A stretch of DNA of 39,155 nucleotides, taken from assembly GCA_011051655.1 (NCBI GenBank), contig DRKS01000010.1, forward strand, positions 1 to 39,155, written 5' to 3'. This document shows, piece by piece, positions 7,270-29,155 of the stretch (within the stretch, counting starts at the first letter, position 1; each line of letters starts with the position of its first letter). This DNA is from Sedimenticola sp. GTDB taxonomy: Bacteria > Pseudomonadota > Gammaproteobacteria > Chromatiales > Chromatiaceae. The notes under the pieces were generated by a model. That model was not told the DNA's origin. It did no database searches and worked only from the letters and a program-made list of their open reading frames with translations. Both the position numbers and the translations under genes were made by a program.

Positions 7270-8043
7270 ATGAAAAAATATCGGTTAGTGCTTATCGCTG
7301 CGGTGCTTGCTGCGGTTACGGGCTTCCCAACACTGGCGGCTGATCATGGCCAGCCCCCGGTCCACTGGAGTTATGGCGGCGGGGCCGGCCCTGAGAAATG
7401 GGGTGAACTCAAGCCTGAATACAAGGCATGCAGCGCCGGCAGGCAGCAATCACCCATCAATATCAATATCGAAGACACCCTGAACAGCGAGATTGGCGCC
7501 ATTGAGTTTTTCTACAAACCCACGCCCCTGAAGGTGCTGAACAACGGCCACACCATTCAGGTCGACTATGCCCCGGGCAGCAGCATGACGGTCGCCGGTC
7601 ACCGCTATGAGCTGCTCCAGTTCCACTTCCATGCCCCCAGCGAGCACAGGATCAACGGCAAGCGCGCCAGGATGGAAGCGCATCTGGTGCATAAAAATGC
7701 AGCGGGAGAGCTTGCCGTGGTCGGCGTCATGATGAACAGGGGCGCCGCCAACGGAACCGTGGCCGCCATCTGGAAGCATATTCCCCATGAGCTGGACAAG
7801 GTGGTCGCCGTTGATGGCGTTACCGTCAACGCGGCGGATCTGCTGCCGGCAAAGCCCCAGAGGTTCTACCATTACATGGGCTCGCTGACGACGCCGCCAT
7901 GCACCGAGAATGTCAGCTGGTTCGTCATGAAATACGATGTCAGCGTGGCCGACAGCCAGCTCACGGACTTTGGCTACACCATCGGCAGCAATGCCCGTCC
8001 CGTGCAGCCGTTGAACCGCCGCTTCATCCTCGTGAATGAATGA
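7270..8043 (+). CDS. Periplasmic alpha-class carbonic anhydrase
   Basis: It interconverts CO2 and bicarbonate. The 257-residue protein has a Sec signal peptide (MKKYR, hydrophobic core, cleavage likely after TLAA near residue 24), placing it in the periplasm. The alpha-CA hallmarks are present: QQSPININ near residue 60, zinc ligands His119 and His121 in LLQFHFHAPSEH, His138 in MEAHLVHKN, and YMGSLTTPPCTENVSW near residue 205. I chose the ATG at 7270 over an in-frame GTG at 7261 because an AGGTGGG-like ribosome binding site (7259-7265) lies between, and because MKKYR begins a normal signal peptide. In an autotroph it would help supply inorganic carbon, but that physiology is inferred. Confidence 0.95.
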   Translation: MKKYRLVLIAAVLAAVTGFPTLAADHGQPPVHWSYGGGAGPEKWGELKPEYKACSAGRQQSPININIEDTLNSEIGAIEFFYKPTPLKVLNNGHTIQVDYAPGSSMTVAGHRYELLQFHFHAPSEHRINGKRARMEAHLVHKNAAGELAVVGVMMNRGAANGTVAAIWKHIPHELDKVVAVDGVTVNAADLLPAKPQRFYHYMGSLTTPPCTENVSWFVMKYDVSVADSQLTDFGYTIGSNARPVQPLNRRFILVNE

Positions 8044-8100
8044 GCGGGCTCAAAAAAGAAAGACATCCCTGTCCAAGATCACAGCGGAGATAATGATGTG

Positions 8101-8132
8101 AAAAAGCGGTTGCCGCCGCTCATGGCGCAACC
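8101..8132 (-). terminator. Rho-independent terminator of the priA-argS-SPOR genes
   Basis: On the minus strand the arms GGTTGC and GCAACC (8132-8127 with 8113-8108), extended by an inner GCC/GGC with one bulged base, form a hairpin followed directly by GCTTTTT. It lies just past the end of the SPOR-domain gene and faces the convergent carbonic anhydrase gene. Confidence 0.65.
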
Positions 8133-8194
8133 CATTGAAGCACGGGTTTCTTAAGGCTGACTTAAACCCTGGAACCCCGGCGCCGCGATTGAGC

Positions 8195-8779
8195 TTATTT
8201 CTTCAATTTGATCAGCAGGCTGTTGATGCCGTTCTGCCGCAGCCGGGCGCGAATGCGGTTGACCTGCCGGCTGCTGTAGTAGGGGCCGCTGCGCACCCGG
8301 TGGAAGATGTCCCGGTTGTCGATATTCACCTTTTGGATCCTGGCCTCGATGCCGAGGAGGGCAAGGCCGGCCTTCATCCGGTCGGCGTCCGCGTACTTCC
8401 GGAAGGAACCCATTTGCAGCATGTAGGCGGTGCTTGCCGTCGGGGCGCCTTGCGTCACCGCCGCCGCTGATGGCCTCTGGGTTGCCTTGCCGGGCCTGGC
8501 TTCTGGCTCCGGCTCCGGCACCACCACCTCCATCTCGGGAAGCTCGGTGTAAAAGTCGAAGCGCGGCTTTGGGGGGAGCGGTTTCTGCTCCTTTTTTGGT
8601 TCCGGCCGGGGGGCGGCTGTTTGAGACCCCGGCGACCCGGGCGCCGGCGGGCCGAGCTTGAGCCAGACGAGGCCGGCGGCGAACAGCCCCACCAATACCC
8701 CGGTCGCGAACCAGACCCATCCCGGCGTCTGGCCCTTTTTGGGCTTGGGATGGGCGCGGCTTTTATAGTCCCGCGCCAT
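8195..8779 (-). CDS. SPOR-domain inner-membrane protein (FtsN-like)
   Basis: The 194-residue protein has a short basic cytoplasmic N-terminus (MARDYKSRAHPKPKKGQ), one transmembrane helix at about residues 20-42 (WVWFATGVLVGLFAAGLVWL), a Pro/Lys/Glu-rich periplasmic linker, and a C-terminal SPOR domain (about residues 115-194: YMLQMGSFRKYADADRMKAGL, then VRSGPYYSSRQVNRIRARL). SPOR domains bind denuded septal peptidoglycan. FtsN of E. coli has the same layout but is longer. The gene starts on the base after the argS stop, a typical argS-SPOR pair of Gammaproteobacteria. Whether it is the true FtsN or a secondary SPOR protein cannot be settled here. Confidence 0.88.
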   Translation of the reverse strand: MARDYKSRAHPKPKKGQTPGWVWFATGVLVGLFAAGLVWLKLGPPAPGSPGSQTAAPRPEPKKEQKPLPPKPRFDFYTELPEMEVVVPEPEPEARPGKATQRPSAAAVTQGAPTASTAYMLQMGSFRKYADADRMKAGLALLGIEARIQKVNIDNRDIFHRVRSGPYYSSRQVNRIRARLRQNGINSLLIKLKK

Positions 8780-10549
8780 CTACATGCTCTCCGGAGCCGA
8801 AACCCCAAGCAGGTTCAGACCATTGCGCAGCACCTGGCGGACCGCCAGGATCAGCTTGATGCGGGCGTCGCGCAGGGCCCTGTCATCCACCAGGAACTGG
8901 TGGGCGTTGTAGTAGGTGTGGAAGTCGTTGGCCAGTTCCCGCAGATAGTGGGTCAGTTGGTGGGGCTCTTCCTTGAGGGCCGCCGCCTCCACCACCTCGG
9001 CATAGCGGGACAGGGTGCGCAGCAGCGCCTGCTCGTGGTCCTCGGTCAAGTGCTCCAGGTTGGTCGCGCCGGCGCTGGTCTCCAGGTCGAAGCCCTTCCC
9101 CGCCCCCTGCTTCAGCACGCTGCACACCCGCGCATGGGCGTACTGCACATAGTAGACGGGGTTGTCGCTGGACTGGGATTTGGCCAGGTCCAGGTCGAAA
9201 TCCAGGTGCTGCTCGCACTTGCGCATGACATAGAAGAAACGGGCCGCGTCCCGCCCCACTTCCTGGCGCAGTTCGCGCAGGGTGACGAAGGAGCCGGAGC
9301 GGGTGGACATCTGCACCTTCCGGCCCTGGCGGTAGAGGTTGGCGAACTGCACCAGCAGCACGTCCAGCCTGGCGGGATCATCCCCCAGGGCCTCCAGCGC
9401 CGCCTTCACCCGGGGCACATAGCCGTGGTGGTCCGCGCCCCAGACATCGATGACCCGCTCGAAGCCGCGCTCCAGCTTGTCGGCGTGATAGGCGATGTCG
9501 GAGGCGAAATAGGTGGTCTGGCCGTTGTCCCGCTCCACCACCCGGTCTTTTTCGTCCCCGTAATCGGTGGAGCGGAACCACAGGGCCCCGTCCTTTTCGT
9601 ACAGGTGTCCCGAGTCGCGCAGGCGCTGTACCACCTTGTTCACCGCACCGCTCTCGACCAGGCTGCGCTCCGAATACCACTTTTCGTAACAGACCCCGAA
9701 TTCTTCCAGGTCTTCGCGTATGTCATCCAGGATGTTGTTCAGCCCCAGCTCGAAGACATAGCGGTAGCGGATATCCCCGAGCAGGTGCCGGGCCCGTTCG
9801 ATAAGGGCGTCGATGTGGGCCTCTTTGTCGCCGTCCGGCTGTTGTGGCGTCTCATCCGGGGGGAGATCGGCAAAAACCTCTGCGGCGCTGTGACGGTAGT
9901 CGTCGCCGTGCTCCTGGTGCAGGGTGGCGGCGATGTCCAGCACATAGTCCCCCCGGTAGCCGTTGGACGGGAAGCTGAAGGTTTCGCCGCAAAGCCCCAG
10001 GTAACGCAGCCAGACGCTGGTGGCCAGGATGTCCATCTGGCGCCCGGCGTCGTTGACGTAGTATTCCCGATGCACCTCGAAGCCCACCGCCTCCAGCAGA
10101 TCGGCCACGGCCGCCCCGTAGGCGGCGCCGCGGCCGTGCCCCACGTGCAGCGGCCCGGTGGGATTGGCGGAAACGAACTCCACCTGCACCCGCTTGCCCG
10201 CGCCGATGCGGCTGCGGCCGAAATCATGGCCCTGGTGCAGAATCTCGGGAACCAGCTCCCGGTAGGCCTCCGGCGCCAGAAAAAAATTGATGAAGCCCGG
10301 ACCCGCGATCTCGACCCTGGCCACCCGGCGGGAGTCCGGCAGGGCGGCCACCACCTTCTCCGCCAGGTCCCTGGGCCGGCAGCGGGCGACCTTGGCCAGC
10401 ACCATGGCCACATTGCAGGCGAAGTCGCCGTGCGCGGCGTCACGGGTGCGCTCGATAACGGGCTGGGGAATCCGGCCGGCGGGCAGGGCCCCGTCCGCCG
10501 CCAACCGCTCGAGGGCCTGGGAAACGAGTTGTTGGATCTGGGCTTTCAT
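8780..10549 (-). CDS. argS: Arginyl-tRNA synthetase
   Basis: Charges tRNA-Arg with arginine. The 589-residue class I synthetase has the N-terminal additional domain (residues 1-90), then [15 protein letters not shown] with the HIGH-type motif HVGH at 135-138. The KMSKS equivalent is the QMSTRSG loop, as in ArgRS enzymes lacking the canonical lysine. The C-terminal anticodon-binding DALR domain follows ([29 protein letters not shown]). Length agrees with the E. coli enzyme. It is downstream of priA on the same strand, separated by about 130 bases holding a tandem repeat and a hairpin, and directly precedes the SPOR gene. Confidence 0.97.
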
Positions 10550-23390: not shown

Positions 23391-23441
23391 CTGACGACAA
23401 AGGGGGGGCGGAAACGCCCCCCTTTGTCGTCAGCGTTTTTT
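23391..23441 (+). terminator. Rho-independent terminator after pmbA
   Basis: Arms 23391-23410 and 23415-23433 pair over almost 20 bp (CTGACGACAAAGGGGGG... with one extra G bulged) around a GAAA loop. A run of six T's at 23436-23441 follows. The right arm and T-run lie inside the end of the convergent adk frame: its TGA stop is complementary to 23430-23432, and the T-run is the antisense of its last lysine codons. Confidence 0.85.
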
Positions 23442-24752
23442 ACGCGCCGTTTTTTTCTTTGTGGTCTTCTTTTTAGCCGCCACCTTCTTCTTCACAGCGA
23501 CCTTTTTCTTCGCGGTCTTCTTCTTGACCGCCGCCTTCTTCTTTACGGCGGCCTTTTTCTTGGAGGCCACTTTTTTCTTCGCGGCCTTTTTCTTTGTGGT
23601 CTTCTTTTTAGCCGCCACCTTCTTCTTCACGGCGGCCTTTTTCTTCGCGGTCTTCTTCTTGCCCGCCGCCTTCTTCTTTGCGACGGCTTTTTTCTTGGAG
23701 GCTGCTTTTTTCTTCACGGCCTTCTTTTTGGCTGCTGCCTTCTTCCTCGTAACGGCCTTTTTCTTTGCGGTCTTCTTTTTAGCCGCCACCTTCTTCTTCA
23801 CAGCGGCCTTTTTCTTCACGGTCTTCTTCTTGCCCGCCGCCTTCTTCTTTGCGACGATCTTTTTCTTGGAGGCTGCTTTTTTCTTCACGGTCTTCTTTTT
23901 GGCTGTTGCCTTCTTCTTCGTGACGGCCTTTTTCTTGGAGGCCACTTTTTTCTTTACGGTTTTATTTTTAGCCGCTGCCTTTTTTGCCGCTTTTTTTGCC
24001 GGAGTGGCTGCGGCCGGTTTTTCCCCGGCCGCCTCCAATCCCTCTTCCGGTGGCTCAGAGGTATCGTTCGCGGCCGGGGCTGGCGCGGCGCCGGAGGCCT
24101 TTCCGAGGGCGTTGTTTATTTCCCTGCACACGGCCTTGAATATGGTGTTGATGTCCCCCACGCCTTCAACCCTGGCCAGCCGGCCCGCCGCCTTATAATA
24201 TTGAATCACCGGCGCGGTCTGGTGCTGGTAGACCCGCAGCCGGTTGGTGATGGTCACTTCATTGTCGTCAGAGCGCTGGTGAAGCTTGCCGCCGCACTTG
24301 TCGCAAATGCCTTCCACGGTGGGAGGATTGGTGTACATGTTGTACATCTGTCCGCAGGATTCACAGGTGCGCCGGCCCTCCAGCCGCTGCATGATGATGT
24401 CGGGGTCCACATCGATGAGCAGTGAGAGATCCAGTGGCTGGTTCAGTTTTTCGAGTAATTCGTCCAGGGCCTCCGCCTGGCTGATATTGCGGGGGAATCC
24501 GTCCAGGATGAAGCCGTTGGCCGCATCGGGCTGGCTGAGCCGGTCCTGGATCATGCCCAGGACGATCTCGTCGGAAACCAGGTGGCCTTCATCCATGACC
24601 TGTTTGGCCTGTATGCCCAGGGGCGTCTTTGACTCCACTGCTTCGCGCAGCAGGTCGCCGGTGGAGATCTGCGGGATATGGTACTGGTCGGCGAGTTTTT
24701 TGGCCTGGGTTCCCTTTCCGGAACCCGGCGCGCCCAATAATACTATTCTCAT
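23430..24752 (-). CDS. adk: Adenylate kinase with a C-terminal histone H1-like Lys/Ala-rich tail
   Basis: Residues 1 to about 217 are a complete long-form adenylate kinase (ATP + AMP to 2 ADP): P-loop GAPGSGKGT at 7-15, AMP-binding STGDLLR at 30-36, LDGFPRN at 83-89 and a LID domain. The LID carries four cysteines (C130, C133, C150, C153), the structural zinc type; E. coli Adk lacks these. A flexible Ala/Pro/Glu linker (about 218-249) leads into ~190 residues of (A/V/T)(A/S/T)KKK repeats with almost no other residue types, like bacterial H1/AlgP tails. E. coli Adk is 214 residues, so this protein is twice the normal size. The frame is continuous through the junction. The start has a GGGGGA ribosome binding site. 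The tail could bind nucleic acid or polyphosphate, or be a slippage-prone addition; function is unknown. Confidence 0.93.
   Translation of the reverse strand: MRIVLLGAPGSGKGTQAKKLADQYHIPQISTGDLLREAVESKTPLGIQAKQVMDEGHLVSDEIVLGMIQDRLSQPDAANGFILDGFPRNISQAEALDELLEKLNQPLDLSLLIDVDPDIIMQRLEGRRTCESCGQMYNMYTNPPTVEGICDKCGGKLHQRSDDNEVTITNRLRVYQHQTAPVIQYYKAAGRLARVEGVGDINTIFKAVCREINNALGKASGAAPAPAANDTSEPPEEGLEAAGEKPAAATPAKKAAKKAAAKNKTVKKKVASKKKAVTKKKATAKKKTVKKKAASKKKIVAKKKAAGKKKTVKKKAAVKKKVAAKKKTAKKKAVTRKKAAAKKKAVKKKAASKKKAVAKKKAAGKKKTAKKKAAVKKKVAAKKKTTKKKAAKKKVASKKKAAVKKKAAVKKKTAKKKVAVKKKVAAKKKTTKKKTARKKR
23461..23980. repeat. Degenerate internal repeats encoding the Adk tail
   Basis: A block starting GTGGTCTTCTTTTTAGCCGC at 23461 recurs at 23596 (offset 135) and, with small changes, at 23767 (offset 171). 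Both offsets are multiples of 15, i.e. of the KKKxx pentapeptide unit, so duplications kept both reading frame and repeat register. Confidence 0.75.
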
Positions 24753-24926
24753 TGTTCCCCCTGCTGTCCACTGATGGCCGAGGAAGCCCGCTGCCGCATG
24801 CCGGTTGAAACCCGTCGACAGCCATGCCCCAATGCCGTGATTTATGGCTGCGTTAAGCTACCCCCAGATGTCCTGTGAAGTCAACGCGGTTTTTGCGCTT
24901 GTCGCCGTATTGGCGCGCCTGTTCCC

Positions 24927-24956
24927 TTGAGTAACAAACCGGCCTTGGGCTATCCT
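24927..24956 (+). promoter_or_regulatory. Candidate sigma-70 promoter of the phosphofructokinase gene
   Basis: TTGAGT (24927-24932) and TATCCT (24951-24956) are separated by 18 bases, about 40 bases before the start codon. They lie in the 243-base divergent region between adk and the phosphofructokinase gene. Each box matches consensus at four of six positions; this is a prediction only. Confidence 0.35.
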
Positions 24957-24995
24957 CTGGCCATTGTCGACAGAAACCACCGGAGCCGATGAACC

Positions 24996-26258
24996 ATGAC
25001 CCCCAAGAACGCCTTTTATGCGCAGTCCGGCGGTGTGACCGCTGTTATCAATGCCTCCGCCTGCGGTCTGATTGAGACGGCCCGCAAGCACTCCGACAGG
25101 ATCGGCAATGTCTATGCCGGCCGCAACGGCATTATCGGCGCCCTGACAGAGGACTTGATCGATACCTCCCAAGAGTCCGACGAGGCCATTGCGGCTCTGC
25201 GCAATACACCCTCCGGGGCCTTCGGTTCCTGCCGGTACAAGCTGAAAAGCCTGGAGGAAAACCGGCGCGAATATGAGCGGCTGATCGAGGTCTTCAAGGC
25301 GCATGATATCGGTTATTTCTTTTACAATGGGGGTGGCGATTCCGCCGATACCTGCCACAAGGTGTCCCAGCTGTCCGAGAAGCTGGGTTATCCCATTCAG
25401 GCCATTCATGTGCCGAAGACGGTGGATAACGACCTGCCGGTTACCGATAACTGCCCCGGCTTCGGGTCCGTCGCCAAGTACATCGCCGTTTCCACCCGCG
25501 AGGCGAGCTTTGACGTGGCCTCCATGTATAAAACCTCCACCAAGGTCTTCGTGCTCGAGGTCATGGGCCGGCATGCGGGCTGGATAGCCGCCGCCGGCGG
25601 TCTGGCGGCGGATGCCGATCATGACCTGCCCATCCTTATATTGTTTCCTGAGATTGTGTTCGATCAGGCCGCCTTCATCGCCAAGGTGAAGGAGAAGATC
25701 GATCAGTATGGCTACTGCTCCATTGTCGTTTCAGAGGGTGTAAAGGGGCCGGACGGTAAGTTTCTTTCGGACCAGGGCCTGCGTGATGCCTTCGGCCACG
25801 CCCAGCTTGGGGGGGTTGCGCCGGTGGTGGCCAATATCATCAAGAATGAACTGGGGCTGAAATATCATTGGGCCGTGGCGGATTATTTGCAGCGCGCCGC
25901 CCGGCATATCGCATCCAGGACGGATGTGGAGCAGGCCTATGCCCTGGGCAGGGCCGCAGTGGAGTTGGCCCTGGAGGGCAAGAACGCCATCATGCCCGCC
26001 ATCGTGCGCACCAGTGATGAGCCTTACGCATGGGAGATCGGCCACGCCAATCTGGCGGATGTGGCCAATGTGGAAAAGATGATGCCGGATAACTTCATTA
26101 CGGAGGATGGCTTTGGCATTACCGATGAATGCCGCCGCTACCTGGCGCCGCTGATTCAGGGTGAGGATTATCCGTCCTATAAGAATGGGCTGCCCCGGTA
26201 CATCACCCTGAAGAATGTGGCTGTGCCCAAAAAGCTGGGCGCCGGATTCGATCTTTAG
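24996..26258 (+). CDS. pfp: Pyrophosphate-dependent 6-phosphofructokinase
   Basis: The 420-residue enzyme interconverts fructose 6-phosphate and fructose 1,6-bisphosphate. The family motif reads NGGGDSADT (residues 111-119), with Asp at the position that is Gly in ATP-dependent enzymes (GGDGS), a change known to favour PPi over ATP. PKTVDND at 140-146, which carries the lysine typical of PPi enzymes, and [11 protein letters not shown] agree. PPi-PFKs are reversible and save ATP. Methanotroph enzymes also act on sedoheptulose 7-phosphate and ribulose 5-phosphate. The start at 24996 has GGAG about 10 bases upstream. The gene is divergent from adk and convergent with rpiA, sharing a TTAG in which the two stop codons overlap. 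Confidence 0.92.
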
Positions 26259-28646: not shown

Positions 28647-29117
28647 TTATTTTTTTGCCGCTTTTTTACGCGGCCGGACTTTTCGTGGCCTAAGTACGCG
28701 TTTTGCCGCGGCTTTCTTTTTGGCTGCCTTTTTCCTGGTTACGGCTTTCTTTTTAGCGGCGGCCTTCTTCTTGGTGGCTGCTTTCTTTTTAGCTACAGCT
28801 TTCTTTTTGGCTGCCTTTTTCTTTACGACCTTTTTCTTGGCTGGGGCCTTCTTTTTGGCAACTTTTTTCTTGGCTGCAACTTTCTTTTTAGCGGCGGCCT
28901 TTTTCTTGGTGGTCACCTTCTTTTTGGCTGCGACTTTCTTTTTGGCGACCTTTTTCTTTACTGCTTTTTTCTTGGTGGCGACCTTCTTTTTGGCAACTTT
29001 TTTCTTGGCTGCAACTTTCTTTTTAGCGGCGGCCTTTTTCTTGGTGGTCACCTTCTTTTTAGTCGCCACTTTCTTTTTGGCGACGGGCTTCTTTTTAGCA
29101 GCTTTTTTCACGGCCAT
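28647..29117 (-). CDS. Histone H1-like Lys/Ala-rich DNA-binding protein (AlgP-like)
   Basis: A 156-residue, extremely basic protein made almost entirely of KKKxx pentads (MAVKKAAKKKPVAKKKVATKKK...), ending in an Arg/Pro-rich patch RVLRPRKVRPRKKAAKK. This composition is that of bacterial H1 homologues such as AlgP or the eukaryotic H1 C-terminal tail, which bind and condense DNA. There is no globular domain. The start at 29117 is fixed by a strong GGAGG (29125-29129) eight bases upstream; a longer in-frame open stretch has no such site. The gene contains a 135-base internal duplication. Its role is inferred from composition only. It is a separate gene from the H1-like tail on Adk. Confidence 0.82.
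   Translation of the reverse strand: MAVKKAAKKKPVAKKKVATKKKVTTKKKAAAKKKVAAKKKVAKKKVATKKKAVKKKVAKKKVAAKKKVTTKKKAAAKKKVAAKKKVAKKKAPAKKKVVKKKAAKKKAVAKKKAATKKKAAAKKKAVTRKKAAKKKAAAKRVLRPRKVRPRKKAAKK
28847..29060. repeat. 135-base-period direct repeat inside the H1-like gene
   Basis: Bases 28847-28925 are identical to 28982-29060 (79 bases), a displacement of 135 bases or 45 codons. The duplication preserves the reading frame and the five-residue repeat register. Confidence 0.85.
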
Positions 29118-29155
29118 TTGCTTTCCTCCGAGAGAAAGAACCCAATTCACTGCTG

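Follow-up and report, generated by a model that had tools for sequence, protein, structure and literature searches.

The window, by which we mean the whole 39,155-nucleotide stretch of Sedimenticola sp. DNA analysed here, carries on its minus strand an adenylate kinase (adk) gene of 440 codons plus stop (23430..24752), recognised by profile matches. As the initial annotation had proposed, one uninterrupted frame of 440 aa, for a full-length product of ~47 kDa, joins an adenylate kinase (Adk) with a four-cysteine LID to a linker and a tail. The kinase core (residues 1-214; 24111..24752, minus strand), delimited by its NF001380 match, PDB alignment and an AlphaFold2 model, is throughout that of a long-LID bacterial adenylate kinase (PF00406 plus PF05191; PDB 1zin, which we take to be a 'zinc-type' enzyme), including P-loop, AMP site and LID. 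The protein scores 304.7 bits against NF001380 (cut-off 251) and 255.5 against TIGR01351 (cut-off 168) and thus belongs to both curated families; its core matches both PF00406 and the ADK_lid profile (PF05191) and is colinear with solved adenylate kinases in alignments to 5g3y, 5g3z and 3dl0, with 1zin also in the match table. The LID segment (24294..24365, minus strand), to which the PF05191 match corresponds, retains all four cysteines (C130, C133, C150 and C153), and from what we know of such Adks we take it to be of the zinc type. Each of the 16 active-site positions checked (P-loop, AMP-site and ATP-side arginines), whose roles we assume to be those of their E. coli Adk counterparts, is intact, and the protein shows none of the active-site residue loss that would mark a pseudoenzyme. 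AlphaFold2 models the core with ten-residue mean pLDDT values of 94-98 up to residue 210, about 96 overall. Because this is the only Adk match detected at E ≤ 1e-30 in a 96%-complete genome, it should be the cell's working Adk, with predicted catalysis of ATP + AMP = 2 ADP.

The best-matching bacterial Adk chains in the PDB are about 216-226 residues long and so end where the window linker starts. Here a further 226 aa follow from residue 215: an Ala/Pro/Glu linker of about 38 residues (215-252; 23997..24110, minus strand), evident from its sequence and a drop in pLDDT, and then a Lys/Ala tail of about 188 residues (253-440; 23433..23996, minus strand), defined by repeat spacing, composition and AlphaFold2, with K/R runs in which the lysine runs are separated by Ala, Val, Thr or Ser. 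The tail is 44% K, 27% A and 2.7% proline, and the net charge is -6 for the core versus +96 for the tail with linker. Lys/Ala-rich, low-complexity, basic and predicted to be disordered, it qualifies as H1-like, and no curated H1-like model was among the profile matches of the full-length protein. Over linker residues 215-252 of the AlphaFold2 model pLDDT declines from 89 to about 42, all 138 residues with pLDDT below 50 lie in the linker and tail, and the last ~68 residues (372-439) form a helix at pLDDT of about 50-82. Strict KKKxx pentads, as first described, are not what the tail contains: the K/R runs are spaced by 6 residues twenty times, by 5 ten times, and by 4 and by 10 once each, which rules out a strict pentad register. 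A 17-residue (51-bp) unit from Tandem Repeats Finder fits a 6+6+5 spacing. Two larger duplications are in frame, one of 135 bp with 92% matches and one of 171 bp with 94%. The 5-residue register claimed earlier is not supported, 171 bp being no multiple of five codons.

An open frame is by itself weak evidence for such a tail, because the low-complexity tail DNA is open on the plus strand as well, where a 245-aa ORF spans 23461..24198. The weight for a genuine tail comes from conservation in other genomes, not from frame length. All six sampled genomes of g77, the nearest genus found, have the tail, which makes an assembly error unlikely and disposes of the possibility, raised by the initial annotation as a refutation, that all close relatives lack it. 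Given these six genomes and dozens of families with the tail, a one-assembly artefact or chance event is ruled out.

The adk gene is convergent with pmbA and divergent from pfp, which encodes a PPi-dependent phosphofructokinase (24996..26258, plus strand; NF010675, 663.1 bits against a cut-off of 273) whose closest solved chain is PDB 3hno (E 1.8e-227). This Pfp is mildly acidic, with a net charge of -10 over 420 residues. The 243-bp region between the two divergent genes (24753..24995) possibly holds promoters for both; in a 7-sequence alignment, the block TGAAGTCAAyGyGGTTTTT is common to the window genome (G000) and the six g77 genomes. On the minus strand this block includes TTGACT, a -35-like hexamer for adk. 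A hairpin search placed a terminator-like hairpin just 3' of the adk stop, between adk and pmbA (23403..23422, minus strand), which is weak alone, 8 hairpins of this type having been found in the region against 4.5 expected by shuffling. About 4 kb away, a minus-strand gene (28647-29150) encodes a stand-alone 167-aa H1-like protein, identified by spacing, DNA alignment and a weak match to NF038053 (31.8 bits, below the cut-off of 80). Its lysine runs mix 6- and 5-residue spacings as the Adk tail does, and long DNA alignments between the two, in many registers, are 66-74% identical. At E ≤ 0.001 the genome contains two matches only to the tailed protein: this H1-like protein and the tailed Adk itself.

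We then asked how widely tailed Adks occur, scoring as a tail, by script on the fetched sequence, at least 60 aa with a K+R fraction of at least 0.22. When 55 relatives were searched, the 11 best matches beyond the window's own genome included 9 in frames of 387-536 aa; the other two, in G033 and G035, are short. A sample of 170 genomes of the family yielded, among the matches listed, at least 75 Adk frames 300 aa long or longer, spread over at least 73 genomes; two of these frames (G138:C13 and G089:C1:1086910) are probably those of short Adks, extended upstream. Tails were scored in at least 72 of the 170, including G005 and G009, which came from the search of the 55 relatives only. Across the class (370 genomes), at least 94 genomes have a frame of at least 300 aa and at least 89, in at least 41 families, have a tail, so that the uniqueness implied by the initial annotation cannot be upheld. 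Five of the 94 lack a scored tail: G289, G537 and G390 (long, K/R-poor), together with G375 and G526, which by our reading have no tail and an upstream-extended frame. Among named genomes, 24 of the best 80 loci are tailed, including L110 of the cultivated Steroidobacter gossypii, with a tail of 137 aa, and loci of a Sulfuricaulis MAG and a Lamellibrachia endosymbiont; loci of Ectothiorhodospira (2), Halothiobacillus (2), Methylophaga (1) and Woeseiaceae/Woeseia (7) are among the untailed. Many family genomes (G007, G019, most of G128-G144 and most of G087-G094) carry three Adks at E ≤ 1e-30, one tailed with four cysteines and two short.

The resulting 186 tailed entries comprise 162 distinct genomes and 24 named records, among which a few organisms may count twice; the window's own family supplies 72 of the 186, and relatives are therefore over-represented. 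On a FastTree tree of 293 related cores (186 tailed; tail absent from 107), tail state changes 11 times, whereas 200 label shuffles on that tree give 86.9 changes on average and never fewer than 76. FastTree is only approximate where branches are long, but the contrast between 11 and 86.9 is large. The tail is stably inherited.

Composition and charge, not sequence, seem to be what is conserved in the tail. Across the 181 gammaproteobacterial tailed Adks (the 186 minus five g378 entries), acidic residues make up 10.5% of the first third versus about 1% later, basic residues climb from 25% to 47%, the median net charge is +69, and 153 of the 181 have a C-terminal Lys or Arg. Over all tails, a run spacing of 5 is commonest and 6 next; tail length has a median of 190 aa (5th-95th percentile 92-318) and often differs by tens of residues between close species. 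In one relative (L043 in G015, frame 7813-9258), the tail passes into out-of-frame RRRRP and GEEGP stretches that look like frame slips in the repeat, either by error or by real hot-spot mutation. For 72 close, non-independent pairs, median dN/dS is 0.07 in the core and 0.28 in the tail; the tail value is finite in 60 of the 72, ranging from 0.07 to 0.86 and always below 1, and saturated in the other 12, apparent tail values being open to lowering by repeat alignment. Because the median exceeds that of the core and the finite values stay below 1, the tail evolves faster than the core without being free to vary. Together, a tail state that changes 11 times where every shuffle gives at least 76, and dN/dS values below 1, favour maintenance of the tail by selection, bearing out the earlier suggestion.

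The divergent arrangement with pfp, like the altered-site paralogues described below, lies beyond the initial annotation. Upstream context could be read for 168 tailed entries: in 149 the Adk gene is divergent to pfp (70 in the window's family and 79 elsewhere), and in the other 19 the 2.5 kb upstream contain no pfp; a tandem or downstream pfp was seen for none of the 168 in the stretches examined. The divergent pair occurs in 33 of the 39 family codes with context. It is also found for 28 of 74 untailed entries with readable context, so the pair is independent of the tail, and these untailed Adks, pfp-paired ones included, mean that neither Adk nor pfp function requires the tail. Of 20 genomes checked for a distant pfp because none was seen beside the Adk (these include G289, which has no scored tail), 14 have pfp elsewhere, and 6 have none at E ≤ 1e-20. 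The presence of pfp as a predictor of the tail is ruled out, since 166 of the 170 family genomes have it at E ≤ 1e-60. In 18 family genomes in which no tailed Adk was seen, at least 4.5 kb upstream of pfp was examined and held no Adk; in a nineteenth, G055, the pfp flank is cut by a contig edge. In a Solemya symbiont, PPi-dependent phosphofructokinase has been tied to an energy-saving Calvin cycle and an H+-PPase, in a report whose main text makes no mention of adenylate kinase (PMC4287430). Some pfp-linked Adks (L110, L115 and the Woeseiaceae loci) have cysteine at only 1-3 of the 4 aligned LID positions, which would amount to loss or replacement of the metal site.

In 41 of the 181 gammaproteobacterial tailed Adks, 38 of them from the window's family, three or more of the 16 active-site positions are changed (13/16 or fewer intact). 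The changes fall most often on G14 (31/41), T15 (35/41), T31 (35/41), R36 (35/41) and D84 (36/41), and further on D162 (23/41), R88 (19/41), D163 (13/41) and R171 (11/41); K13 (39/41), R123 (39/41), R160 (38/41), R127 (37/41) and Q92 (38-40) are retained. If the E. coli roles hold, as we assume, the pattern amounts to loss of the AMP and Mg/phosphoryl-transfer sites, with most ATP-side contacts preserved. These genes are not decaying, because core dN/dS is 0.02-0.09 in the 13 close pairs made up of two altered cores. The loss of AMP- and Mg-site residues, with the P-loop lysine and the majority of ATP-side arginines retained, suggests that in several lineages with a second Adk the altered tailed copies are tail-anchored adenylate-binding proteins and not enzymes, and we would predict them to be inactive. 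All 41 keep four cysteines, the tail and a divergent pfp. Because this retention is accompanied by purifying selection, the tail and its context probably matter beyond AMP phosphorylation, and the tail probably has a function in its own right.

Of the 41 altered cores, 39 are in genomes in which another Adk was counted; the remaining two are in G079 and G080 (90 and 91% complete), with no other Adk found. Counts per genome, made at E ≤ 1e-30 for 101 genomes and at E ≤ 1e-40 for 65 more, cover 157 of the 181; all 16 sites are intact in 41 of the 45 cases in which the tailed Adk is the only one found (one tailed sole-Adk relative, G195, has 14/16) and in 47 of the 112 with other Adks. A plain Fisher test of altered core against extra Adk, which ignores relatedness and is not to be leaned on, gives p = 3.6e-5; a tree-aware comparison yields only 5 independent pairs on supported branches and a median p of 1.

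A Lys/Ala-rich C-terminal tail on an Adk also occurs in members of an existing family model, NF010381 / PRK13808 (335 positions). Adks of that type, found in g378, have a short LID and a core without cysteine, in contrast to the four-Cys LID of the window protein, which scores 202.9 bits against NF010381, far below the cut-off of 426, and is no member. Among 199 genomes of a phylum sample, five g378 members (L248-L252), which we infer to be Bradyrhizobium-like alphaproteobacteria, exceed the cut-off and have tails of 91-103 aa. With a different LID and so low a score, common descent of the two tails is not favoured; from these sequences they look like separate origins. PRK13808 also appears in PMC8263066, as a weak domain similarity of a fungal protein that has no bearing here. 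In the titles and abstract openings of the literature matches listed, from a collection with few subscription papers, a Lys-rich Adk tail, its function and an Adk-pfp gene pair are undescribed. The window core is ordinary and its tail of a known kind, and NF010381/PRK13808 already implies that tailed Adks exist.

Comparable tails occur on unrelated domains. AlgP of Pseudomonas likewise has a Lys/Ala-rich C-terminal tail predicted to be disordered, although its N-terminal domain is predicted to be helical and is not an enzyme, and its repeat is KPAA as opposed to KKK plus 2-3 residues in the window. AlgP is reported to localise to polyphosphate granules, its Lys/Ala/Pro-rich C-terminus is required for their even spacing, and a fragment of that C-terminus binds DNA; adenylate kinase does not come up in the main text (PMC9239181). 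PhaF, a granule-binding phasin where the window protein is a nucleotide kinase, combines a functional domain with a DNA-binding tail that has been likened to nucleoid-associated proteins, and its C-terminal domain is reported as natively unfolded without DNA (PMC3574117). Lys/Ala-rich tails have thus become attached to more than one type of functional domain, as AlgP and PhaF illustrate.

By analogy with PhaF and AlgP, we consider it reasonably probable that the window gene encodes a working Adk whose polycationic C-terminal tail is under selection, is probably disordered and anchors adenylate turnover on a cellular polyanion. The tail would hold the enzyme on that polyanion, most likely nucleoid DNA/RNA or polyphosphate, and the turnover of ATP and AMP to 2 ADP would then occur there. 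The pairing with pfp would allow the products of ATP -> AMP + PPi reactions to be managed jointly, AMP through Adk and PPi through Pfp. A more far-reaching proposal, which we regard as tentative and on balance doubtful, is that there is a large and hitherto undescribed family of pfp-linked, tail-anchored gammaproteobacterial Adks in which the tail, the four-Cys LID and pfp are conserved functional parts, and that in several lineages these have become adenylate-binding pseudo-kinases on the nucleoid or on polyphosphate, reporting or buffering adenylate state.

Sequence cannot distinguish DNA or RNA from polyphosphate as the tail's target. That the tail binds polyphosphate granules specifically, with Adk working there alongside PPK (polyP:AMP phosphotransfer) and beside a PPi-based glycolysis or Calvin cycle, strikes us as rather unlikely. 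One match to the PPK family and two to H+-PPase are present in the genome, PPK and Adk form a complex in E. coli, and pfp is the partner in 149 of 168 tailed entries; PPK is common, however, being found in 7 of 14 control genomes, and pfp is present in the 166 of 170 family genomes whether or not they have a tailed Adk. The similar composition of the AlgP tail, on a protein that sits on polyphosphate granules, speaks for the same idea, but AlgP fragments bind DNA too, and adenylate kinase is absent from the main text of that report (PMC9239181). A tolerated, functionless repeat expansion, perhaps copied from the H1-like gene, would draw on the ease with which low-complexity repeats expand, on the wide variation in tail length, and on the presence of that gene about 4 kb off with the same 6/5 spacings and 66-74% DNA identity. 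We think this improbable, given 11 tree changes against a shuffle mean of 87, a tail dN/dS below 1 in all 60 pairs with a value, and the tail's retention in 41 of 41 altered-core paralogues. Least probable, and in our view very much so, is that the tail tethers Adk to Pfp or another acidic enzyme for metabolic channelling and not to nucleic acid or polyphosphate: the divergent pairing is conserved and Pfp is mildly acidic, but 28 untailed Adks retain the pairing, 19 tailed ones have no pfp neighbour, and a tail of +96 far exceeds the -10 of the partner.

Textbooks treat adenylate kinase as a soluble housekeeping enzyme. Since what is apparently the only Adk copy of this organism bears a conserved polycationic tail, energy-charge chemistry is probably placed at a particular site in the cell. 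The altered-site paralogues offer a natural separation of the role of the tail from enzymology, and the conserved pairing with pfp offers a route to the coordination of PPi metabolism and adenylate balance in Gammaproteobacteria.
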